Below, one piece after another: positions 9,388-20,815 of a stretch of DNA of 64,000 bases (its first letter is position 1; every line of letters begins with the position of its first letter). The notes beneath the pieces were generated by a model. That model did no database searches. It was not told where the DNA came from and saw only the letters and a program-made list of their open reading frames with translations. The stretch comes from Butyrivibrio sp. YAB3001. Lineage in GTDB: Bacteria; Bacillota; Clostridia; Lachnospirales; Lachnospiraceae. The stretch spans positions 269,503-333,502 of the forward strand of contig NZ_FOKR01000004.1 in NCBI RefSeq assembly GCF_900112195.1. Reading direction: 5' to 3'. The translations under genes and the position numbers were made by a program.

Positions 9388-10707
9388 TTATTTCAAAGAA
9401 ACTACGGTTGTAGCAATAAACTTATGGTCTTTACATTCAAGCTTCAATGAGCCATCATAGCGTTCTACTACTCTTTCGATATTAGCAAGTCCAAATCCAT
9501 GTGATTCTTTGTCAGCTTTGGTAGTAGCTATGCGATTATTATGAACAAACACATCTTGAATACATGTATTACTTATTGTAAACACCCATAAATTCTTTTT
9601 CAAAATTGACTTGATTTCGATTTTTCTTTCTCCATCAACAATAGATGCTGCTTCTATTGCATTATCAATCAGATTAGATAAAAGAATTACAAGATCCACA
9701 TCATCTACCTTCTCTGCTGGAATAAATCCTTCAAACGATAACGCAATATGCTTTTCATTTGCAGTTTTATCCTTAAAACTTATAAGAGCATCAGCAATAA
9801 AGTTTCCCGTATCAAAGGATTTTTGTGTAGTAGACTGATATGCATCCTTTATTTCTTCAATATATTTAAGTGCCTGCTCATTCTTATTTTCAGAGATCAG
9901 TGCACTTAACGCCAAAAGTAAATTCTTGGTATCATGTCTAAAACGACGAAGCTCAGTATTTTTCTCATTCATCTCTCCGTAATACTCTGCCATCTGCTTC
10001 ATCGGTTCTTCAAGGTTACCTATTATGGTTGTCATGGATACATTCTGCTTTCGAATCAGAATTGTATGAATTATCAGCACCGAAAGAAGTACATGTGCTA
10101 TAATGCTCAAATTCTTAAGTGATGCAGGATAGTCCGGCGATTTTAAAATCTCATCTTCAACCAATCCATAAACATAATATACTGCGAAAAGAACTACATA
10201 TTCAAAAGTGGTAAGATTTGTAAAACACGTATTTAATAGCTTTATTTTTCTAAATGCAAGCAATATCATCAAGAATAAAAATATTGCACCTTCGACAAAT
10301 GTAACGAATACATCAAATTTTAGTAATCGATTTCCACCAAATACATCTCCGAAATCGATAATATGCAAAAGCGGATTTGCAAATATCTCTGTTATACCTT
10401 CATAAAACAAAACCATTATGATGAACTTGAACTTAACTCCATACTGAGTCCAAATGAATGGAATTATTCTGACAAAAAACAGTCCATATGCTAAAAACAC
10501 CACAACTGCGTTAGCATCCTGACCAAGTTCAATCATAAATCTACACCAATATGTAGTAAATACATAAAAGATGATCCATATCAGATCACTATTCTTCCAT
10601 TTATTTTTTATAAATGCGAAATTATAATCAAATACAATTCCAAAATTCATGAAACAGAATATGGCTCGCAATGTATATAAAAGAAATATAATAGGAAAGC
10701 TATCCAT
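9388..10707 (-). CDS. GHKL sensor histidine kinase (AgrC/ComD-like)
   Basis: This 439-aa protein has about six membrane helices in the first 215 residues, a short coiled segment, the phospho-acceptor box RRFRHDTKN (His near 255) and a GHKL ATPase end (N-box LSNLIDNAIEAAS, G-box SHGFGLANI). Kinases of this type sense secreted peptides. Its start follows GGAGG, four bases after the regulator gene, so both form one operon. The peptide gene at 9209 lies just downstream. The likely outputs are that peptide gene and the RiPP operon. Confidence 0.9.
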   Translation of the reverse strand: MDSFPIIFLLYTLRAIFCFMNFGIVFDYNFAFIKNKWKNSDLIWIIFYVFTTYWCRFMIELGQDANAVVVFLAYGLFFVRIIPFIWTQYGVKFKFIIMVLFYEGITEIFANPLLHIIDFGDVFGGNRLLKFDVFVTFVEGAIFLFLMILLAFRKIKLLNTCFTNLTTFEYVVLFAVYYVYGLVEDEILKSPDYPASLKNLSIIAHVLLSVLIIHTILIRKQNVSMTTIIGNLEEPMKQMAEYYGEMNEKNTELRRFRHDTKNLLLALSALISENKNEQALKYIEEIKDAYQSTTQKSFDTGNFIADALISFKDKTANEKHIALSFEGFIPAEKVDDVDLVILLSNLIDNAIEAASIVDGERKIEIKSILKKNLWVFTISNTCIQDVFVHNNRIATTKADKESHGFGLANIERVVERYDGSLKLECKDHKFIATTVVSLK

Positions 10708-10710
10708 TTC

Positions 10711-11427
10711 TTACCCTCCAATTTTTACAAGGTACTCCGAATAAATAGAATTAAATTCTTTATATTTCATTCTGCTAATCTGCAATTTAGCCCCGGTATC
10801 CAAAGTTATTTCATCACGATCATATGAATCGATATGTTTCATATTCACCAGATACGACTTGTAACATCTATAAAAGTACTTTTTAGAAAGCCTTTCTTCT
10901 ACTGCTCCGAGTGTTTCATGACACTCAACAGGTTCTCTTCCGTCACTAAAATTCAAAACACAATTCTTGCCATAGCCTTCAATATGTGTTATGGTACTTT
11001 CCTTAAAAAAGAAATTTGTTCCATCAACACGGATCTTTAGTACTTCATCATTTTCCATCATCTGTATAAATGAATCCAACGCTGTAAAAAACTTGTCTTC
11101 TTCTATTGGCTTAACAAGAAATCGAAATGTTCCTACCTCAAAAGATTTAAATACGATACCTGGATAACTCGAAACAAAAATAATAACTACTTCCTTGTCA
11201 TTTTCTCTGATTTTTTTTGCTATAGACAAACCATCAGAAGTACTATTGTCAAACTGATAATCCATAAATATCAAATTATACTTTTTATCTGCTGCAAGAA
11301 GCATTTCACCAGTATTGTACTCATCAACTGTATATTCAAGTTCCTTCTGCATAGAATAATTAAGAAGATTTTTCTTTACCTGTTCTCGCATAACTTTGGA
11401 ATCATCACAAATAGCAATACTTATCAT
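10711..11427 (-). CDS. LytTR response regulator (AgrA/ComE-like)
   Basis: This 238-aa protein has a receiver domain (acidic pair D8-D9, phospho-acceptor D56 in LIFMDYQ, conserved Lys in FLVKP) and a C-terminal LytTR DNA-binding domain (about 135-235; FFKESTITHIEGYGKN, FYRCYKSYLVNMKHI). I chose ATG at 11427 because GAGGTGG precedes it; the upstream extension is low in coding quality. A near-consensus promoter drives it with the kinase. It should bind the paired repeats at 9352-9383 and 20899-20930. Confidence 0.92.
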   Translation of the reverse strand: MISIAICDDSKVMREQVKKNLLNYSMQKELEYTVDEYNTGEMLLAADKKYNLIFMDYQFDNSTSDGLSIAKKIRENDKEVVIIFVSSYPGIVFKSFEVGTFRFLVKPIEEDKFFTALDSFIQMMENDEVLKIRVDGTNFFFKESTITHIEGYGKNCVLNFSDGREPVECHETLGAVEERLSKKYFYRCYKSYLVNMKHIDSYDRDEITLDTGAKLQISRMKYKEFNSIYSEYLVKIGG

Positions 11428-11486
11428 AAAAAACCACCTCAAAAAAACAAAACAATTACATGTAAAAAACGACATAAAGTCATACC

Positions 11487-11668: not shown

Positions 11669-11854
11669 TTACTGTAACTCATTTACAGGTGTTACAACTG
11701 GCTTTCCATCTTTATCAAGTAATGCTGTAAGTCCGCCTGCATATCCTGACTGACGGAATACATAATTAACTCCTGTCTCAGTATCTACAAGAATTTCTAC
11801 CACATTAGTATGTCCCTGAGTATATACTTTTACAAATCTTTCGTCTTTTTTCAT
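11669..11854 (-). CDS. DUF6440-like small protein
   Basis: This 61-aa protein (MKKDERFVKVYTQGHTN..., then DTETGVNYVFRQSGYAGGLTALLD) matches my memory of the DUF6440 family, a short beta-rich protein common in Firmicutes and of unknown function. It is the last gene before the operon terminator, with AAAGG upstream. It may be an accessory or immunity protein, or a passenger. Confidence 0.7.
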   Translation of the reverse strand: MKKDERFVKVYTQGHTNVVEILVDTETGVNYVFRQSGYAGGLTALLDKDGKPVVTPVNELQ

Positions 11855-11874
11855 AATCTTTAATTATCCTTTCA

Positions 11875-12258
11875 TCACATTGTATAGTAAATATCTGTTA
11901 TTACAAAATCATCTGAAATTTCGCCTTGTTTAATGCTGCAAAAAACCTTACCAGAATCATTTGATATTTTATCTATCACTATATCATTCATCAGTTTTTC
12001 TATTTCATATATGCTTCCTTCAAATCTCACTCTTGCTGCAGGTTCAATTTTCAGGTTCCATATAGAATTTTCGTTTAAATCATTATCAGAATAGTATATT
12101 TTATATTTTTCTTTTCCGTACTCAACGATTATTCCATCTAATCTCTTTCCATTCAAGGTAGCCACTTTTTGAAGTGCATCGCTAAATTCTTTGACATTAC
12201 AAACTAATACGCTGGTACGACTTTCATCAAATTCTTCATATAAAAGTGTCCTGAGCAT
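11875..12258 (-). CDS. Hypothetical protein in RiPP operon
   Basis: This 127-aa acidic soluble protein has no signal peptide or membrane helix. It starts 3 bp after the stop of the M50 protease gene, which shows operon membership. The fold looks alpha/beta (VLVCNVKEFSDALQKV, GIIVEYGKEKYKIYYSD). I do not recognise it; immunity or leader-binding roles are possible but unsupported. Confidence 0.65.
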   Translation of the reverse strand: MLRTLLYEEFDESRTSVLVCNVKEFSDALQKVATLNGKRLDGIIVEYGKEKYKIYYSDNDLNENSIWNLKIEPAARVRFEGSIYEIEKLMNDIVIDKISNDSGKVFCSIKQGEISDDFVITDIYYTM

Positions 12259-12261
12259 TTA

Positions 12262-13467
12262 TTATACCATCCGCAGTATTCTTCTACGTTCTTCTAAATA
12301 TATCTTTTGATACCTCTTAAACATATTTAATATATCTTTAGCAATAATAAAAGACATCATAATCGTGATTATATAAAATGGAACGTATAGATTGTTTAAA
12401 TAAAGGTAATTGTATACCATTTTTACTGTAGCCACCCAGAACATTGGATAAACCATAATTGCCCCAAGTCCATATATGGATAAAACTAATCCTTTTTTAA
12501 TGCTACAAATTTTTTCTTTTATAATGCCATGATCAAAAATACATGTCAGAAAGAAAATCACACCTTTATCCATCAGGTTATCTATACCTATCATAGCTGC
12601 GAGTGCCCAGTAGCCATCAAGTTTTACAAAAGGTATAAGGTTAAAAATGATAAACCCTATATTTGCGAAATAGTAAAATAGTAAGAACATTATATCTATT
12701 CCAAATTTATGTAAAACTGAATATAAACCAAGTGCTAAAGTGCCGCATAGATAGTTAACGTGTACTCCACCTAATGCAACTCCCAAGGTGCTTTTTCGTT
12801 TATTCATAAGATAAATATCACTTACATCACAGTAAAAACTTGGTATTCCAAAAAATAGCATCATTCCCATTTTAGGAATCTTTCCACCATTTTTCATACA
12901 ACATATCCCATGACCAAACTCATGCAACATTGTTGTGATTATCATTGCAAGAAAAAGACCTACTATTTCAATCCAGCTCATTCTTACAATTTTATCTGCC
13001 GCATCTACAAAAATCTGGGGTTCTTGTAAAACACCTCTCCACGAAATAATCGTGAGCAAAAAGCCTATTAAAAGTCCTTTCCAACCAAATAATTCGCGTA
13101 TAAGATATGGCGTCTTCTGTACTAGTCTGTCTGGATTAACAGATGCAATCCTTATTTTTGTATAATCAGAGAAACCTTTTTCTTTCCTGATATACCCGTG
13201 GTCATCATCTGTTTCTACTACATCATCAGAGAAATATCCCCACTCTTCAAATTTTTGGTCTAAAAGTGTTTTACTATCATCTGAGAGAAGATCAGCATAT
13301 TGAACATCTATCAGATCATTTTGAAAATCCTCTATTTTATTCAGACAAGTAATTAAGTAGGCTGTTTCGTTTTCTCCAAGCTTAACATATCTATTTGTTC
13401 TTTCATTTTTTACCACATACGTATGTGGGCGAGTTCCATTTATAATTTCAAGATATCCAACATGCAT
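12262..13467 (-). CDS. PqqD-like/M50 intramembrane metalloprotease
   Basis: This 401-aa membrane protein has an N-terminal part (about 1-85) like PqqD/RRE peptide-recognition domains (RYVKLGENETAYLI), then membrane helices with the M50 zinc site HEFGH (182-186) and the third ligand in LDGYW (D284). M50 proteins of this type serve RiPP clusters as leader proteases, as in daptide clusters. It sits just downstream of five precursor genes, so it most likely cuts the leader after the EELG region. Start at 13467 follows AGAGGAAAT. Confidence 0.88.
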   Translation of the reverse strand: MHVGYLEIINGTRPHTYVVKNERTNRYVKLGENETAYLITCLNKIEDFQNDLIDVQYADLLSDDSKTLLDQKFEEWGYFSDDVVETDDDHGYIRKEKGFSDYTKIRIASVNPDRLVQKTPYLIRELFGWKGLLIGFLLTIISWRGVLQEPQIFVDAADKIVRMSWIEIVGLFLAMIITTMLHEFGHGICCMKNGGKIPKMGMMLFFGIPSFYCDVSDIYLMNKRKSTLGVALGGVHVNYLCGTLALGLYSVLHKFGIDIMFLLFYYFANIGFIIFNLIPFVKLDGYWALAAMIGIDNLMDKGVIFFLTCIFDHGIIKEKICSIKKGLVLSIYGLGAIMVYPMFWVATVKMVYNYLYLNNLYVPFYIITIMMSFIIAKDILNMFKRYQKIYLEERRRILRMV

Positions 13468-13524
13468 ATTATTTCCTCTTTCACAGTTCTTTTCTCTCAG
13501 TCTCTAATTATTTAGATCACCAAA

Positions 13525-13695
13525 TCAAGTTAAAGCGATTGCTGCACAGATTCCGCCTGCAATTGCAGCTCCTGCTGCCATTCCCTCAACAAAATCTCTT
13601 CCGCTTCCAAGTTCCTCTACATTCTCAAGCTCTTCGAAACCTGCTTCGTTTGTTGCATTAATCATATCCTTCTGATCAAAATTTGTGTTCTCCAT
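13525..13695 (-). CDS. RiPP precursor peptide 1 (daptide-like)
   Basis: This 56-aa peptide is too short for most gene callers. The leader carries GFEELENVEELGSG (residues 19-32) and the core is helical and Ala/Gly-rich, ending GGICAAIALT. The C-terminal Thr is shared with all four sister peptides and fits conversion to a C-terminal diamine as in daptides. It is about 85 percent identical to peptide 3, so one is a recent duplicate. A GAGAGGAAA site precedes ATG at 13695. Confidence 0.85.
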   Translation of the reverse strand: MENTNFDQKDMINATNEAGFEELENVEELGSGRDFVEGMAAGAAIAGGICAAIALT

Positions 13696-13746
13696 TACTA
13701 TTTTCCTCTCTTTTTCTCGTATTTTATTTATTGGTTGATTTTCTCA

Positions 13747-13914
13747 TCAAGTCAAAACGATTGCTGCTGTAATTCCTACTGCTGCTGCTCCTACTGCTGC
13801 TCCTGCAAGAAATGCTCCATCTCCAAGCTCTTCTGCTACTTCAAGTTCCTCGCAGTTTACTTCCTCATTCTTGATCTCTTCATTCTTAAGTTCTACATTC
13901 TTTAATTCGCTCAT
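13747..13914 (-). CDS. RiPP precursor peptide 2 (daptide-like)
   Basis: This 55-aa peptide starts MSELKNVELKNEE, with the leader motif CEELEVAEELGDG (residues 21-33) and a core of almost only Ala, Gly, Val and Ile ending GITAAIVLT. The only Cys lies in the leader, which rules out thioether chemistry in the core. AAGGAGAAA precedes ATG at 13914. Confidence 0.85.
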   Translation of the reverse strand: MSELKNVELKNEEIKNEEVNCEELEVAEELGDGAFLAGAAVGAAAVGITAAIVLT

Positions 13915-13996
13915 TTTTATTTCTCCTTTTTTGTGTGTTTTTAATTTTTTATTTTTATTCTTTTTGGATTATTAAATTACTTATTCTCTAAATACA

Positions 13997-14167
13997 TCAA
14001 GTTAAAGCGATTGCTGCGCAAATTCCGCCTGCGATTGTAGCTCCTGCTGCCAATCCCTCAACAAAGTCTCTTCCGCTTCCGAGTTCCTCTGCATTTTCGA
14101 GTTCTTCGAAACCTACTTCATTTGTTGAATTGATCATGTCCTTCTCGTTAAAATTTGTGTTCTCCAT
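13997..14167 (-). CDS. RiPP precursor peptide 3 (daptide-like)
   Basis: This 56-aa peptide is a close copy of peptide 1 (leader FEELENAEELGSG, core end GGICAAIALT). Differences cluster at a few leader positions and in Met-to-Leu and Ala-to-Thr changes in the core. Its flanking DNA is also similar, so the unit was duplicated around peptide 2. AAGGAAGAAA precedes ATG at 14167. Confidence 0.85.
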   Translation of the reverse strand: MENTNFNEKDMINSTNEVGFEELENAEELGSGRDFVEGLAAGATIAGGICAAIALT

Positions 14168-14224
14168 TACTTTTTCTTCCTTTCTGTTTTATGATTTTTT
14201 ATATTTTGCATTAGCTTGTCTTAA

Positions 14225-14401
14225 TCAGGTTATTACAACTCCTGCTGCTACTGCTGCAGCAACTCCTGCTGCTACTGACATAGCTATAACAAATTCTTTT
14301 TCACTAAGTTCTCCAAGTTCTTCTACAACTTCGAGTTCCTCAAAGGTACTATTATCTTGTGCCTTCATATGCATGCTATCTTTGACCTCTTCCACCAGCA
14401 C
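14225..14401 (-). CDS. RiPP precursor peptide 4, GTG start
   Basis: This 58-aa peptide has leader motif FEELEVVEELGE and a core ending VAAAVAAGVVIT. I chose GTG at 14401: AAGGAGG sits four bases ahead, and this start places the motif Phe at residue 20 exactly as in peptides 1 and 3. A second GTG at 14395 and ATGs at 14374 and 14368 are alternatives. The core has no Cys, Ser or acidic residue in its last 18 positions. Confidence 0.78.
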   Translation of the reverse strand: MLVEEVKDSMHMKAQDNSTFEELEVVEELGELSEKEFVIAMSVAAGVAAAVAAGVVIT

Positions 14402-14452
14402 TATACCTCCTTCCTTCAGAATATATTTTTCCTATTAACAACTACCCGAATA

Positions 14453-14620
14453 TCAGGTAAGCGTAATATACATTCCCATAATAGATCCAAGAGTTACGCT
14501 GTCCGCAATTACAGATAACACGTTATTTCCTGCCGTTCCCAACTCTTCGGCAATTTCCAGTTCTTCAAATTCAAGAATTGCTTCTTCTGATATCTCTTTA
14601 TTTTCACTTATTGCTTTCAT
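14453..14620 (-). CDS. RiPP precursor peptide 5, divergent core
   Basis: This 55-aa peptide starts MKAISENKEISEE after AGAGGAAGT at 14620 and keeps the leader motif FEELEIAEELG. Its core differs from the others (VLSVIADSVTLG, end MGMYITLT) with Ser, Thr, Asp and Met, yet it still ends in LT. It is the first precursor after the aminotransferase gene. Five different cores suggest a multi-component or diversified product. Confidence 0.82.
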   Translation of the reverse strand: MKAISENKEISEEAILEFEELEIAEELGTAGNNVLSVIADSVTLGSIMGMYITLT

Positions 14621-14649
14621 ACTTCCTCTTTTCACTAATAAAATGTTTT

Positions 14650-15942
14650 TTATTTAAATAGTCGTGCGAAAGTCTTATCAAGACCATCTTTCATCTTGTC
14701 TATGTCTTCGTCGCTCATGATATACATAGGCATCATTACTATGCATGATGAAACGTCTTTTAGATAACTCCATTCAACCAAGATGCCATTTCGCTTTAAT
14801 AACCTAACGACTTTCAATATATCTGTTTCCGACATCTGATTATTTTCCTGATCAAGTAATTCCATCGAAAACATCATTCCACACTGTCTAACACAAAAGA
14901 CCCTGCTATATTTCTCTAAAACCTCATCCAGTGCAGCTCTTATTTTTTTAGAAATAGCATTTATTTTCATCAAATCAGATTTATCACTGCTAAATCTATT
15001 AACAACCTCTAATCCTGCTCTGCATGCTAATGCGTTTGCATTTTGAGTTGATAGATGAAAAATAAGCTCTTCATTTTTTCTAAATCTATCCACAATTCTC
15101 TTTGATACTGCTACAGCTCCAAGAGGTAAAATTCCATTGTTCAATGCTTTGGACATTGTTACGATATCTGGCTTTGCATTAAAGTGTTCGTATCTGAATA
15201 CGTCCCCGGTTCTTCCAAATCCTGTAGCAACCTCATCAAAAGCGACAATCACGCCCTTTTCATTTGCAAACTCCAGCAATCTATTAACAAACCAATCTGG
15301 AAGCGGAATCACTCCTGCAGAACCAAGAACAGGTTCTAAAATAATTCCACCAAGCCTTTTTTCGCATGCCTCCAATTCCTTTTCCAAAACATTCTTGGCA
15401 TCTTCAATATCTATTTTCTCTACCTCTGAAAAAGGAAGTGATAATTCTACAATTTCCGGCAAAAGTGGAGCATAACCATTTCTTGCCTCACTGCAATAAT
15501 TACTAATGGACATTGATCCATAATAGCTTCCATGGTATGAATTCTTTACTACTGCTATTACATTTCTCTCTGGAGTACCACCTAAGGATGCATATTTGCG
15601 GATAAGCTTTACTGTCAGATCTGCACTTTCAGATCCGCTGCATGTGTATAGAATTTTCTCCATATCAGGATGCAATAGCTCTAACAACTTATCTGCAAGT
15701 TCTTCGGCTGCCTTAGTTGTAAATTCACAAGGATTAACATAGGCAACGTCATCAAGTTGTTCCTTCAGTGCCTCCTTGATTGCCTCATCCCCATATCCAA
15801 ATGGTCTGTTCCACAGACCACTGTTCATGTCCAGATACTCCTTGCCTCTTACATCAAACACTCTTGTTCCGGATGCTTTCTGTATTTCAGTCAAAGATGA
15901 ATCAGGGGTTTCAAGCGGAGCCCATATATTACTTTGTTTCAT
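14650..15942 (-). CDS. Class III PLP aminotransferase (RiPP maturation)
   Basis: This 430-aa enzyme has the class III marks: pyridoxal-phosphate phosphate site GSESADLT (about 103-110), FDEVATGFGRTG (D236 binds the ring nitrogen) and the Schiff-base Lys265 in MSKALNNG. Start at 15942 follows AAGAGGAG and overlaps the end of the methyltransferase gene by 14 bases. In daptide clusters a class III aminotransferase converts the ketone left after oxidative decarboxylation of the C-terminal Thr into an amine; I infer that role. An unrelated small-molecule role is possible. Confidence 0.88.
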   Translation of the reverse strand: MKQSNIWAPLETPDSSLTEIQKASGTRVFDVRGKEYLDMNSGLWNRPFGYGDEAIKEALKEQLDDVAYVNPCEFTTKAAEELADKLLELLHPDMEKILYTCSGSESADLTVKLIRKYASLGGTPERNVIAVVKNSYHGSYYGSMSISNYCSEARNGYAPLLPEIVELSLPFSEVEKIDIEDAKNVLEKELEACEKRLGGIILEPVLGSAGVIPLPDWFVNRLLEFANEKGVIVAFDEVATGFGRTGDVFRYEHFNAKPDIVTMSKALNNGILPLGAVAVSKRIVDRFRKNEELIFHLSTQNANALACRAGLEVVNRFSSDKSDLMKINAISKKIRAALDEVLEKYSRVFCVRQCGMMFSMELLDQENNQMSETDILKVVRLLKRNGILVEWSYLKDVSSCIVMMPMYIMSDEDIDKMKDGLDKTFARLFK

Positions 15943-16750
15943 CGATTTTCTCCTCTTTGCTATATACATTCATTCGTGTTTTGATAACATCCCAATCAAA
16001 TGTGTACGAATTATGCATTACATATTCAGTCTCAGCCATCATTGCATCAATGAATTCGTCAGTAATAATCTTTTTGTCTGAAGATGCGATATATTTTTGT
16101 GTTGATCCATCCTCGACTTTCTCAATGTACATATTTACTACTGTTCTGCCTGGAACAATATTTTCATATTCCTGCATCAGCATCATGTAGTGCTCTTTAA
16201 CAGAACATTCACCATACATTTCAGACAATGACTCTGGGCCAATTACCTGATCTGTTCTGTAATCAAACATTAGTCTTCCGCCTGGTTTCAACCAGCCATA
16301 AGTTCTTTTTAATAACTCTTTTGTCTTCTCTTCATCATCAGCAAGCAAGCATATTGTTGTTGCGGGAATAGTAATAAGATCGTACTTTTTTTCCGGTTCC
16401 CATTCAAAAATGTCACCTACCCAAGCATTTAATCTATCTCTTACCTTAGATGGAAGTTTACTTTTTGCCTCATTAAATCTGTCAATCATAGAAACTGAAA
16501 TATCTACGCCATCACAGCAAAAGCCCTTTCTGGCAAGCGGAATCATGTAGTTTCCACCGTCACCACAAGCAATTTCCAACACATCTTTTCCTACCGCCAT
16601 AGCGTTTTCAAGATAATAATCCAGAGTATCCTTCGGTATAGTTAACCTTGTATACATATTTGAAAACACACCATCATACATTCCGCACTCTATAATCGTA
16701 TCTTTGTTAAGTTCCTTAATGTTTTCAAACATTCCAAAATACTTATTCAT
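15929..16750 (-). CDS. SAM-dependent methyltransferase (RiPP maturation)
   Basis: This 273-aa class I methyltransferase has motif I LEIACGDGGN, an acidic end of strand 2 (GVDIS) and motif III WLKPGGRLMFDY. The start overlaps the previous stop (TAATG). In daptides such an enzyme dimethylates the new C-terminal amine, which fits this cluster. The leader-binding partner would be another protein, as no RRE-like segment is visible here. Confidence 0.87.
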   Translation of the reverse strand: MNKYFGMFENIKELNKDTIIECGMYDGVFSNMYTRLTIPKDTLDYYLENAMAVGKDVLEIACGDGGNYMIPLARKGFCCDGVDISVSMIDRFNEAKSKLPSKVRDRLNAWVGDIFEWEPEKKYDLITIPATTICLLADDEEKTKELLKRTYGWLKPGGRLMFDYRTDQVIGPESLSEMYGECSVKEHYMMLMQEYENIVPGRTVVNMYIEKVEDGSTQKYIASSDKKIITDEFIDAMMAETEYVMHNSYTFDWDVIKTRMNVYSKEEKIDETK

Positions 16751-18285
16751 TAAATCATTCCTCCCTGGCGAAGTTTCGCATAGCCTTCATTTACCATTAC
16801 TTTTGCCAATTCTTCAGACATTCCGTACTTTAGTGACATTTCAATTTCTGTCGTGCTCATATTTTCCAAGCCACGCTCCCAGGCCTCAATGAGAAATACA
16901 TACTTAGGATCGAGGTGTACAATATTCCACTGCTTCATCTGAAGGCCATAATATCTTCCATCCTTCTCGAAAATGTAGGAAAATCTGGTAGGTTTACTTT
17001 CTGCATTAGTCCCATTAAATTCCAAACCTCTTGTTCTTGAAGAAATATTTATCTCTCTTTCCTGGCCAAATATTGTACTTATTTCTGACAATGCGCTGGT
17101 TATTCTAAGCTTAATAAGATAATCTTCCATAATATCTGCATATTTCTTGATAAACTCACAATAATCATCTTCTGTTATTCCCACTGGAATGCAGCTACAT
17201 TTTGCACATTTTGCTGACATTGGACAGTTAACACATTTTCTCTTCGCTATAGTCTGATCCGCAAGTTTATTTGCTTTAACCAGCATATCGAACTGTGTTT
17301 CTCCATTTTCTGCCAGAATCACATCTGATGTAATACAAGGCTTGATGCCATCTCTAGTCATATTGTATCTAAGGAGTCTCTTTAAGCTGCAGGAAGATGT
17401 CCATCTGCACTCATCAGCAATAAGAACTTTCGTTACATCTACCTTTCCTTCATTTCTATATCTATCAAGATCTTTGGCAAACGCATTAAGATCGTCATTG
17501 TTCAAAATTCTAAGAACATATGTATAATCAGATTCAATTGCATTGTTATCTCTTAAATCCACATATTCTTTATAGCTAACACACTTACGCTTTACTTCAT
17601 ATGAAGAATCATCAAACTTTACGCTATTTTCGCTTATTCTATGAATGTGATTAAAGTTCCTGTTACCGGAAATATCCACATTCTCGCTTTCAACCATAAG
17701 TGCACCATTTAGATCAAGTATTGTGGATAAATCTTCTGGTACTACAGATTTTTCTGCATATACATGCTTCGCAAGAGATGTAGAAATTCCCTGAGGATAA
17801 ACGCCTGTGATATAAGCGTTATATCCATTTTTCATTGCATTGTAATACCCTTCAGATTCTTCTGAAATTTTGATTCCATTTTCTAATTCTTCACTACACT
17901 CATAACTGGTAAGTCCATTAAAGAGCCCTTCTAATTCAGAAACATCATGTATTACATGTAAGATTGTTTCCCCAACAATATATGATCCTGTAATCAAAGA
18001 CTCATCCTCTGTGCAAAGAACATACTTGGCATCCTCTTTATCACCACTCTCAGCAAAATCAATCATTACCTTTGCCACAAGATTTCTTATATCTGCATTA
18101 CTTCTAAAAAGAATTACTTCTGACTCTTCCTCAAGCAGTGCATCCTCTAATTCTTCTAATGAATTCACATCCTCGATGTAAGGTGTTACAACCTCAAAAC
18201 TCTGAGGTATTTCATCAACATCGGCCTCCGATACAAATTCATAAAGTCCATTATTTACATTAATATCAACAAGAAGCATATCCAT
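16750..18285 (-). CDS. SPASM-like Cys-rich RiPP protein, no radical SAM core
   Basis: This 511-aa protein has a Cys pattern like the auxiliary iron-sulfur SPASM domain: C293, C299, C317 (in DGIKPC), C351-x2-C354-x5-C360-x2-C363-x-C365 and C376. No CxxxCxxC of a radical SAM core occurs anywhere. The first 290 residues are acidic and unfamiliar; the last 80 (SYIFEKDGRYYGLQMKQWNI) may be a separate small domain. It occupies the place where a RiPP recognition protein would be expected. I infer leader binding or redox support for the dehydrogenase; the function is unknown. Confidence 0.72.
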   Translation of the reverse strand: MDMLLVDINVNNGLYEFVSEADVDEIPQSFEVVTPYIEDVNSLEELEDALLEEESEVILFRSNADIRNLVAKVMIDFAESGDKEDAKYVLCTEDESLITGSYIVGETILHVIHDVSELEGLFNGLTSYECSEELENGIKISEESEGYYNAMKNGYNAYITGVYPQGISTSLAKHVYAEKSVVPEDLSTILDLNGALMVESENVDISGNRNFNHIHRISENSVKFDDSSYEVKRKCVSYKEYVDLRDNNAIESDYTYVLRILNNDDLNAFAKDLDRYRNEGKVDVTKVLIADECRWTSSCSLKRLLRYNMTRDGIKPCITSDVILAENGETQFDMLVKANKLADQTIAKRKCVNCPMSAKCAKCSCIPVGITEDDYCEFIKKYADIMEDYLIKLRITSALSEISTIFGQEREINISSRTRGLEFNGTNAESKPTRFSYIFEKDGRYYGLQMKQWNIVHLDPKYVFLIEAWERGLENMSTTEIEMSLKYGMSEELAKVMVNEGYAKLRQGGMI

Positions 18286-18307
18286 TTTTCATAACCCTTT
18301 TTCTAAT

Positions 18308-19090
18308 TTATTTAACTGTTACACCGCCATCCACAATGATGTTTTGGCCTGTAATCATCCCTGCCCTCTCAGAGATAACAAATTTGATAGATTCGCATAT
18401 ATCTTCCGGAGAAGCATATTTTCTTAACGGAACTGAATCCAAATACTTTTTCTTCATTCTTGGCTGTTCAAGAATATGACTGTTTTTTTCTGAAAGAATC
18501 ATTGTCGGAGAAACTGTATTTACACGAATTCCATATTTTCCCCACTCCAACGCTAATTCCTTTGCCAGGTGGATCATTCCTGCCTTTGATGAGCAATATG
18601 CTGCTCTATTATCATTAACAATTACTCCATGTTGTGAAGCAATTCCTACTATAGATCCACCATTTCCCTGTATCATATTCTCTGCTGCTGCCTGTGCCAT
18701 AAAGAAGAACCCTTTAAGATTTACTGAATGAACTTTATCCCAAACATCTTCTTTAAGCTCAAGAGCTGGTATTAGATAATTGATTCCAGCCAGATATATA
18801 AGTGAATCTAGCTTTATTTCTTTTTCAACCAGTAATTCTCTAAATTCGTTAACATTTTCCAGCTTAGTAACATCCATAATCACTGGAATAAACTCATTTT
18901 CAGGATAATGTTCTTTGCACCAGGCAACCTGCCTGTCCAATGAATCTTTGCAATTCTCGTTTTCTGTCAAAATTATTCTGTCAAAGCAATCACATAGATC
19001 AGGAATTAGCTTCAACCCTATACTGCTTGTAGTTCCTATTACTGCTGCTGTTCTTTTTGTGCATCCATCCAAAAAATGGTTTTTCTCCAT
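18308..19090 (-). CDS. Short-chain dehydrogenase (RiPP maturation)
   Basis: This 260-aa SDR has the cofactor loop VIGTTSSIG near the start, YLAGINYL (the NAG-type motif), the catalytic Ser in IVGIASQHG and the YxxxK pair in AAYCSSKAG. The C-terminal IVDGG is typical. The start is fixed because the Rossmann strand begins at residue 13, so the 92-base overlap with the permease gene is real. Threonine oxidation to a beta-keto acid with loss of CO2 would suit the daptide route; the substrate is inferred. Confidence 0.87.
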   Translation of the reverse strand: MEKNHFLDGCTKRTAAVIGTTSSIGLKLIPDLCDCFDRIILTENENCKDSLDRQVAWCKEHYPENEFIPVIMDVTKLENVNEFRELLVEKEIKLDSLIYLAGINYLIPALELKEDVWDKVHSVNLKGFFFMAQAAAENMIQGNGGSIVGIASQHGVIVNDNRAAYCSSKAGMIHLAKELALEWGKYGIRVNTVSPTMILSEKNSHILEQPRMKKKYLDSVPLRKYASPEDICESIKFVISERAGMITGQNIIVDGGVTVK

Positions 19091-19928
19091 AACTTACAAT
19101 ACCTCTTCTGTATAATTTACTTCCTATAGCTACTAAAGCCACCATTTCAACTGCTTCAATGATCAAATCTATTGCAACCATTCCCCATGAAATTGTATCC
19201 ATCTGTGCTGTCATAGGGAGCAGTATTGATGATAACAATGGAAGATATGGCACATACAGGCTCCAAGCTCCACTTGTTCCTCTCAGTATTACCAGACCTA
19301 TCAGATACGCAAGCATCATCACCATAGTAAGCGGCAACACTAGCTGAGTTGAATCTTGTGAGTTATCAGCAAAAGATGCAAATGCTGCATAAACTGTTGC
19401 ATACATCAAGAAGCCTAAAATTAGTGAACCAACAAAAAGGAAATAGTACTTTATATCTACTTGGCTTGCCGCCATAGCAAGTGTGTCACTCTCTGAACCA
19501 CACATCTTACTCATGAATACCATAAATCCGCCAACCACACCGGCCTGGATAATTACTGAAATCAAGTAACCGGTAACTTTACCAACTAATAACTGCGAAG
19601 GCTTTACGTAACATAAAAGTGTTTCAATTATCCTGCCACTCTTTTCTTCTACAACGGAATTAGCAATACTGGTTCCATAAAGAAGAATTACAAAATATAG
19701 AACTATCAAAAACAACATCTGTATCACTGATACTGCATCTTTAGCATCTATTGCCATTTCATTGGCCAGAGCCTCTGCTCCAAAAATTGCTCCCATGATT
19801 CTGTTATAGTTAAAAATAAATCCTACAATTGAAAAACAGATAATATACAATATGTAATACCATTTAGAACTAAGTATCTGATCTAACGTAAACTTTATAA
19901 CCTTACTTGTTTTACTATTCTTCATCAT
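18999..19928 (-). CDS. ABC transporter permease (NatB-like)
   Basis: This 309-aa protein has six membrane helices with the ABC-2 pattern (large extracellular loop, NSVVEEKSGRIIETLL after helix 2). It starts on the stop of the ATPase gene (ATGA) and forms the exporter with it. The C-terminus extends past the usual YGEKP end and overlaps the SDR gene. Likely job: export of, or immunity to, the mature peptides. Confidence 0.88.
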   Translation of the reverse strand: MMKNSKTSKVIKFTLDQILSSKWYYILYIICFSIVGFIFNYNRIMGAIFGAEALANEMAIDAKDAVSVIQMLFLIVLYFVILLYGTSIANSVVEEKSGRIIETLLCYVKPSQLLVGKVTGYLISVIIQAGVVGGFMVFMSKMCGSESDTLAMAASQVDIKYYFLFVGSLILGFLMYATVYAAFASFADNSQDSTQLVLPLTMVMMLAYLIGLVILRGTSGAWSLYVPYLPLLSSILLPMTAQMDTISWGMVAIDLIIEAVEMVALVAIGSKLYRRGIVSYGEKPFFGWMHKKNSSSNRNYKQYRVEANS

Positions 19929-20815
19929 GCCATCTTCTCCAAAAAAATCTCCTGCATAGTAACCTTAGGATGAATCACCTCAAGAATACCAATGCCGTTA
20001 TTTGTAATTTTGCTATACAACTGTTTCAGTTCATTTTCATCCTTATAACGAAGCTTATATTTCCAGCCTTCACTGCTTATTACTGCAAAATTCATAGAAT
20101 GGATCAGTTCGGAAATATCTCCATCTACTGTAATGATCACCTCGTTAACTTCTGAATTTTTAGCAATCAGATTTTCTACTGTGTCATTTTCAATAATATG
20201 TCCCTGCTTCATAAGAACTACTCTGTCGCACATTTCTTCAACATCTTCCATTCGATGTGAACTGAAAATAACTGTTGTTCCTGCTTCTTTTAAATCCTTT
20301 ATTACTGACTTAAAGAGCTCAGCATTTACTGGATCCAGTCCTGAAAAAGGTTCATCCATAATTACGATCTTAGGTTTATGGAGAATTGCACTTATAAGCT
20401 GTACTTTCTGCTTATTTCCTTTTGACAAAGACTTTACTTTACTATTTAACCTGTCAGAAATACCAAATCTCTCAAGAAGCCTTAGTATCTCTTTCATAGC
20501 CTCTGCTTTACTCATACCATTCAACATTCCAAAATAAAGTAACTGTTTTTTTACTGTTGTTGATAGATATAAACCTCTTTCCTCTGGAAGATATCCTATT
20601 GCAACATCTTCTTTTGAAATACTCTGTCCATCATATGTGATACTTCCACTTGTAGGAGTAAGTATCCCCATAATACATTTTATTGTTGTTGTTTTACCTG
20701 CTCCGTTTCTTCCAAGCAGACCAAGAATTTGTCCGTCTTTTGCTTCAAATGTGATATTATCAACCGCTTTGAAATCTCCATACTGCTTACAGAAATCTTT
20801 AATAACAAGCCCCAT
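19925..20815 (-). CDS. ABC transporter ATP-binding protein
   Basis: This 296-aa ATPase has Walker A GRNGAGKTT, the signature LSKGNKQKVQ and Walker B IVIMDEPFSGLDP, with a C-terminal extension of about 80 residues as in Na+ or drug exporters of the NatA group. It is the first gene after the LytTR-type promoter and is preceded by GGAGG. It pairs with the permease downstream. Confidence 0.92.
   Translation of the reverse strand: MGLVIKDFCKQYGDFKAVDNITFEAKDGQILGLLGRNGAGKTTTIKCIMGILTPTSGSITYDGQSISKEDVAIGYLPEERGLYLSTTVKKQLLYFGMLNGMSKAEAMKEILRLLERFGISDRLNSKVKSLSKGNKQKVQLISAILHKPKIVIMDEPFSGLDPVNAELFKSVIKDLKEAGTTVIFSSHRMEDVEEMCDRVVLMKQGHIIENDTVENLIAKNSEVNEVIITVDGDISELIHSMNFAVISSEGWKYKLRYKDENELKQLYSKITNNGIGILEVIHPKVTMQEIFLEKMA

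Follow-up and report, generated by a model that had tools for sequence, protein, structure and literature searches.

A predicted Bacillota-type daptide operon in Butyrivibrio encodes a SPASM-like protein in the position of DapB

In the described daptide pathways, the precursor undergoes oxidative decarboxylation, transamination, and dimethylation to the end group Dmp (PMC10036551, PMC12338566; statements on cited papers, here and below, refer to the parts of them that were available). DapB is required for the class-defining step, and nothing is stated in these two papers of its origin beyond a C-terminal RRE. Ren et al. 2023 reported 180 daptide clusters from Bacillota, which carry a PF13561 oxidoreductase where those of Actinomycetota have an iron-type dehydrogenase (PMC10036551). 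Here we describe an operon in a 64,000-nt stretch of the Butyrivibrio sp. YAB3001 genome (contig NZ_FOKR01000004.1, positions 269,503 to 333,502), called the window below, to which the operon coordinates refer. It resembles the Bacillota clusters of PMC10036551 in having a PF13561 short-chain dehydrogenase/reductase (SDR), an aminotransferase, a methyltransferase, an M50 protease with an N-terminal RRE, an RRE-bearing DapB, and several precursors that end in Thr. We favor, at a probability of roughly 0.72, the reading that this is a Bacillota-type daptide cluster in which the precursors are held on a scaffold, DapB, during C-terminal processing, DapB itself being a former radical S-adenosylmethionine (SAM) enzyme that would have lost its catalytic core.

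The operon is compact and is read on the minus strand from 20815 to 11669, with genes for an ATP-binding cassette (ABC) ATPase, an ABC-2 permease, an SDR, a 511-aa protein, a methyltransferase, a class III aminotransferase, five precursors, an M50 protease, and DUF5975 and DUF6440 proteins (Table 1). An earlier note on this DNA had placed this gene set in one daptide-like operon; all the genes that it listed do lie on the minus strand where it put them and their protein families were confirmed, with the amendment that, beyond the core set, the two genes closing the operon on its 3' side, for DUF5975 and DUF6440 proteins, are probably bystanders. A hidden Markov model search against the daptide NCBIfams, which the note had proposed, agrees with its class assignment: daptide models are the best NCBIfam matches of DapD (NF041821, E 1.8e-106, 356.2 bits against an equivalog cut-off of 450), DapM (NF041820, E 4.8e-29, 101.5 bits against 175), and DapP (NF041824, E 6e-57, 193.5 bits against 300), so that these maturases do not fall in unrelated families, and precursor A5 reaches 24.6 of the 25 bits set for its precursor model. 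DapC belongs to PF13561, the published oxidoreductase family of Bacillota-type daptide clusters, and its YxxxK region aligns as in solved SDRs, while HEFGH can be read in DapP. We consider it very likely that the operon is a daptide cluster of the Bacillota type, and its likely products, as predicted from the genes, are five small peptides that carry an amine at either end. Because the window fits this published type, neither class nor host is new. The host is indeed a Firmicute outside the Microbacterium type case, as the note had said, but the novelty of this was overstated, and novelty of the host and of an SDR as the dehydrogenase was rejected, both being present already in PMC10036551. 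A thiopeptide-type (micrococcin) pathway was likewise rejected, as YcaO and dehydratase genes are absent among the operon genes scanned.

None of DapD, DapM, DapP, and the precursors passes a curated family cut-off, which weighs against the favored reading. The operon might instead make a daptide-like but distinct class of product with a different C-terminal group, either because processing stops at a ketone or a primary amine or because the SDR reduces. The scores below the equivalog cut-offs would fit this, as would the report that, between the two phyla, the enzymes resemble each other about as much as they resemble outgroups (PMC10036551). Against it, the same three enzymes are found again, together with a C-terminal Thr, in related clusters, and hominicin, a Staphylococcus product with Dmp, has been tied to a Bacillota cluster (PMC10036551). 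We therefore regard a distinct class as quite improbable and retain the daptide assignment.

The five precursors all carry an (F/C)EELExxEELG leader motif and an invariant C-terminal Thr, and the lengths, motif, and ends that the earlier note gave for them were all confirmed. Across nine clusters, the window's and eight related ones, we collected 28 precursor candidates, 28 of 28 ending in Thr; the count is not free of bias, since candidates had to carry an acidic motif and end in Thr or Ser to pass the filter. The same filter returned zero candidates in the regions of two further related loci, L018 and L057. Since the window precursors have Glu-Leu at the leader end, cleavage would fall after Glu-Glu-Leu (EEL). 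Two precursors of the Paenibacillus-like locus L014 have window-like cores, with GSGRDFFEG against GSGRDFVEG in A3 and A5, and GDGAFLAG in both L014 and A4; they are 62% and 51% identical to their window counterparts over 37 residues. These core types, GSGRDF.. and GDGAFLAG.., are thus common to window 13525-14167 and L014 6184-6530, although the matched part of the DapB proteins from the two loci shows only 22% identity. The two cores perhaps form a conserved two-peptide pair.

The part of the system that is new relative to PMC10036551 and PMC12338566, in the parts available, is the SPASM-like protein that fills the DapB slot, and this is the real lead among the remarks of the earlier note. 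In PMC10036551, DapB is presented as a fusion of a DUF and an RRE that resembles no known protein, a comparison that we make by description only. The words "spasm" and "cobalamin" occur 0 times in the available text of PMC10036551 and PMC12338566; other papers combine "daptide" and "radical SAM." The window DapB has a Rossmann-like N terminus (residues 1-127), a SPASM-type region with eight cysteines (293-376), and an RRE-like C terminus (432-511), the last supported by its predicted fold and by profile comparison. The eight cysteines do not vary across any of the 25 aligned short-form DapB sequences. Their order is that of the full SPASM domain of anSME, and their spacing nearly so, except that the CxxC-type core has x2 in place of x3 and the first gaps are longer (pattern used: C-x9-15-G-x4-C-gap-C-x2-C-x5-C-x3-C-gap-C, plus an upstream Cys as in anSME). 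Two SPASM models give matches among the 25 members, TIGR04085 weakly in 4 (best E 0.011) and TIGR04148 in 4. The label SPASM-like that the note had used therefore has the 25 invariant sets of eight cysteines in its favor, although the window protein itself matches none of the SPASM models. From this pattern the cysteines are predicted to hold iron-sulfur clusters. The radical-SAM motif CxxxCxxC is absent from the window protein, as is the barrel.

Relatives were sought in further genomes, the counts including the window's own genome where it was searched. The window DapB was matched in 4 of 194 relatives' genomes, and an alignment of its homologues, A1, in 6 of the 397 genomes searched from the taxonomic family and 2 of the 398 from the phylum. 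In the homologue search that underlies A1, scoring was limited to the 7998 candidates with the most words in common, and A1 excludes P0022 and P0027-P0029 (349-434 aa), of which P0027 resembles an SDR-DapB assembly chimera or a deletion. A broader alignment, A2, matched 4 of 328 genomes in the class of G765 (two strongly), 22 of 322 in the window's class (four strongly), and 1 of 96 in the order of G191; the weak matches, in two and eighteen genomes, were set aside (E 4e-6 or worse, mostly short PqqD-like stretches). The first scan of genome contigs yielded zero loci and the second one locus, and plasmid searches with the operon DNA and the DapB proteins of L014, L057, and the window yielded zero matches. 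Thirteen loci that encode a DapB-like protein were compared closely (the window, L002, L005, L014, L015, L016, L018, L019, L020, L054, L055, L056, and L057), G428 (L011, L017; 136-aa frame) being excluded. Gene content is partly visible in L002 and L057, which are short stretches. A DapC-type SDR is present in 10 of the 13 (all except L016, L018, and L056), the nine others being 38-55% identical to that of the window, and in all ten of these loci DapB lacks CxxxCxxC. In L005, from a Lachnospiraceae metagenome-assembled genome of sheep rectum, the gene order is T1-T2-C-B-M-D-A(x5)-P. The DapB of L002, from the window's genus, matches P0028 (Butyrivibrio sp.) and is the same by eye. L014 is assigned as Paenibacillus-like by 97% identity to a Paenibacillus tianjinensis protein, and L018 as Vallitalea-like by 90% identity to a Vallitalea maricola protein.

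The long Paenibacillus-type DapB proteins from matching clusters have a predicted fold like that of the cobalamin-dependent radical-SAM enzymes CysS, OxsB, and TsrM, and they align over most of their length with the intact Vallitalea-type enzyme. CxxxCxxC is absent from 20 of 20 Paenibacillus-type homologues, a count that retains P0033 (filed under a fungus and without the SPASM motif), and present in L016, L018, P0050, and P0051. In their SPASM-RRE part the long forms match four Streptomyces MpaB proteins at 94.5% over 220 columns in a profile comparison. The MpaB model NF041823 also finds the DapB of L014 (residues 550-788, profile 109-324 of 331, E 1.4e-6) and of L054 (E 4.2e-5), both far below its cut-off score. 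In two of the four Streptomyces MpaB proteins, which were aligned, the SPASM positions hold no Cys and the CxxC loop is missing; the other two have zero cysteines overall. The predicted folds and these comparisons support the view that the DapB family arose from proteins of cobalamin-binding radical-SAM/SPASM architecture. We propose a series from intact proteins (Vallitalea type) to long forms without the motif (L014, L015, L054, L055, and L056), short forms without the barrel (window type), and Cys-free proteins (Streptomyces MpaB). Read without a rooted tree, the series would run by loss, and DapB would be an inactivated cobalamin-radical-SAM enzyme that now serves as a scaffold for the substrate, the oxidation having passed to a dehydrogenase.

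Several further results weigh against this descent. The window DapB is matched by zero SPASM models at E 0.1 and by NF041823 only at E 0.17, and the model of its Rossmann domain fits response-regulator and cobalamin-binding domains equally. The direct profile comparison of the window family with Streptomyces MpaB fails (0.3-1.5%), as does that of the Vallitalea type (0.0%), so that the link from DapB to MpaB runs through the long forms only, and this without a shuffled control. Several single-sequence comparisons are weak, for example that of the Vallitalea type with L015 (10.8%). Moreover, 2 of the 25 rows behind the 815-aa long-form model are intact radical-SAM proteins and may favor that fold. 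Two other comparisons were counted as failed: the N-terminal part of the window family with L016 (14.6%) and the Actinomyces candidate L068, annotated as a helix-turn-helix protein, alone with the long forms (46.3%). Searches for known structures gave no lead: Foldseek with the whole window DapB model gave zero matches at E 0.001 or below, and a PDB sequence search with the window DapB family gave zero matches; SPASM enzymes do not stand out in the structure match lists, which hardly test that region.

These data bear on an alternative in which DapB is not derived from a radical-SAM enzyme but is an old SPASM-RRE adaptor, fused separately to cobalamin and radical-SAM domains in the long forms. 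Three points would suit such an adaptor: MpaB and the short forms occur widely, the Rossmann domain at the N terminus of the window protein has no diagnostic value, and the direction of change is unrooted. Yet the long daptide forms have a predicted whole cobalamin-radical-SAM fold without the motif, which reads as loss, and SPASM clusters have otherwise been reported as components of radical-SAM enzymes (PMC5715301, in the part available). We consider an ancient adaptor unlikely and keep to descent from a radical-SAM enzyme. In its fullest form this descent would cover the first daptide step as a whole: the Vallitalea type would be the living form, oxidizing the C-terminal Thr itself; the Paenibacillus and Lachnospiraceae DapB proteins would be stepwise dead forms with two SPASM clusters still in the electron path; and actinobacterial MpaB would be the last, cluster-free relic, the redox work having passed to two unrelated dehydrogenase families. 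This we regard as doubtful.

The sequence itself shows the gene set, the leader motif with C-terminal Thr, the eight SPASM-type cysteines, and the absence of CxxxCxxC. We propose the following pathway. The RRE of DapB would bind the precursor leader, and its SPASM-derived domain would bring the C-terminal Thr into DapC. This SDR would oxidize the Thr side-chain hydroxyl with nicotinamide adenine dinucleotide (NAD), after which CO2 would be lost; DapD would aminate and DapM dimethylate the product to give the dimethylamine end, Dmp. DapP would cut after EEL, and the ABC pair T1/T2 would export the product. The order of reactions and the Dmp end group are taken by analogy from published actinobacterial work, whereas docking would be the non-catalytic role of the SPASM domain. 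Clusters in DapB, if present, are probably structural, because the Streptomyces MpaB proteins compared here lack the cysteines and because of the published MpaB/MpaC work. Alternatively, a daptide is made but the predicted clusters join the chemistry, for instance as an electron acceptor beside or instead of NAD in Thr oxidation. The eight cysteines are more conserved across the 25 short forms than a mere docking surface needs, and SPASM clusters in other enzymes have been proposed as electron carriers (PMC5715301). Work published on MpaB/MpaC in E. coli speaks against this, as do the four Streptomyces MpaB proteins, which lack the Cys-rich loop or any Cys; the argument is indirect, since the dehydrogenase of the published pair is from another family. 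In addition, the SDR retains its own nucleotide-site family. Redox-active clusters thus seem improbable to us, and we prefer a DapB that presents the peptide.

Table 1. Features of the operon (window coordinates) and separate cobalamin radical-SAM genes in related loci
Feature	Coordinates	Strand	Matches and remarks
DapT1, ABC transporter ATPase, predicted exporter	19925..20815	-	PF00005 2.4e-31
DapT2, ABC-2 type permease, predicted exporter	18999..19928	-	PF12698 3.2e-21
DapC, SDR, predicted NAD-dependent oxidative decarboxylase of C-terminal Thr	18308..19090	-	PF13561 4.8e-48
DapB, 511 aa, Rossmann-like N terminus / eight-Cys SPASM-type region / RRE-like C terminus	16750..18285	-	
DapM, SAM methyltransferase	15929..16750	-	NF041820 4.8e-29, below cut-off
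DapD, class III aminotransferase	14650..15969	-	NF041821 1.8e-106, below cut-off; PF00202 2.6e-79
Precursor A1	14453..14620	-	55 aa (60 aa from upstream GTG); leader motif and C-terminal Thr; no NCBIfam match
Precursor A2, GTG start	14225..14401	-	58 aa; leader motif and C-terminal Thr; no NCBIfam match
Precursor A3	13997..14167	-	56 aa; NF041806 0.00036, NF041808 0.0012, below cut-offs
Precursor A4	13747..13914	-	55 aa; NF041808 0.07; core resembles a Paenibacillus-type precursor
Precursor A5	13525..13695	-	56 aa; NF041808 1.5e-5, 24.6 of 25 bits
DapP, M50 protease, predicted leader peptidase	12262..13467	-	NF041824 6e-57, below cut-off; PF02163 5.8e-7
DUF5975 and DUF6440 genes, 3' end of operon	12258-11669	-	
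Separate cobalamin radical-SAM genes	L015 14796-16112; L019 6708-8012; L054 17026-18411; L055 16325-17629		

The DUF5975 and DUF6440 genes were rejected as parts of the pathway: BLASTP matched neither in the related dap loci compared, and the 7 of 61 searched genomes in which DUF5975 occurs, the window's own among them, all belong to one genus. A terminator-like hairpin follows these genes at 11645-11598; the scan found 3 such sites against 4.1 in shuffles, and only the 20-pair length speaks in favor of this one. Beyond the hairpin lie genes for a response regulator of the LytTR type (11475-10711) and a GHKL kinase resembling AgrC (10707-9388). Such LytTR regulator and GHKL kinase pairs adjoin three dap clusters (window 9388-11475, L019 23-1750, and L020 2314-4295), with partial or weaker regulator matches in L005 and L054 too, and quorum-type control of these clusters is possible.

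The related loci contain further genes of note. Separate genes for a cobalamin radical-SAM enzyme of 434-461 aa (PF02310 and PF04055; Table 1) occur in at least 4 of the 10 SDR-bearing dap clusters. L018 5604-16399 encodes an intact cobalamin radical-SAM/SPASM relative of DapB, an aminotransferase, a methyltransferase, a second cobalamin radical-SAM protein, a CAAX protease, a PqqD-radical-SAM-SPASM protein (best match StsB, below cut-off), and an 85-aa Cys-rich open reading frame ending in Thr; the only nearby SDR sits on the other strand and is 26% identical to DapC. This cluster is possibly a radical daptide-sactipeptide hybrid. In L056 (2736-11878) a long DapB-like protein without CxxxCxxC adjoins a cobalamin radical-SAM protein in a LanM-type lanthipeptide cluster, and matches to an aminotransferase and a DapC-type SDR are both absent from that stretch. 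YcaO and ThiF-family genes lie within the dap cluster of L020 (11423-14685), and L016 (8584-17216) has a cobalamin radical-SAM protein with a SPASM-like C terminus beside polyketide synthase/nonribosomal peptide synthetase genes and a SAM synthetase, outside any peptide cluster.

If the proposed origin of DapB is correct, daptides provide an example of a pseudoenzyme that was retained to present the peptide and that let an NAD-dependent dehydrogenase take over, with living intermediates. It would also predict an iron-sulfur protein in a pathway where none was expected, help to explain why two unrelated dehydrogenase families serve as DapC, and point to undescribed clusters with intact cobalamin radical-SAM relatives.

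Comparison with the actinobacterial daptides (mpa of Microbacterium paraoxydans and tfDap, PMC12338566) reveals the same pathway logic, an ELE-type leader motif, a C-terminal Thr, and an MpaB-type helper for the first step. However, the actinobacterial systems have an iron-type dehydrogenase fold instead of an SDR, the Streptomyces MpaB proteins lack the SPASM cysteines, and the leader ends in Ala-Pro rather than the Glu-Leu of the window. In micrococcin/thiocillin decarboxylation the dehydrogenase is called a homologue of the Bacillota DapC in PMC10036551, whereas the window operon has no YcaO gene. The cobalamin-dependent radical-SAM enzymes (CysS, OxsB, TsrM, and TokK) differ from their long relatives in dap clusters, which lack CxxxCxxC, and from the window DapB, which lacks the barrel. 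Finally, compared with the SPASM radical-SAM enzymes anSME, CteB, and PqqE, the window DapB lacks the radical-SAM motif and barrel and carries its RRE at the C terminus, but it shares the RRE itself with CteB and the eight-cysteine order, at near-identical spacing, with anSME.

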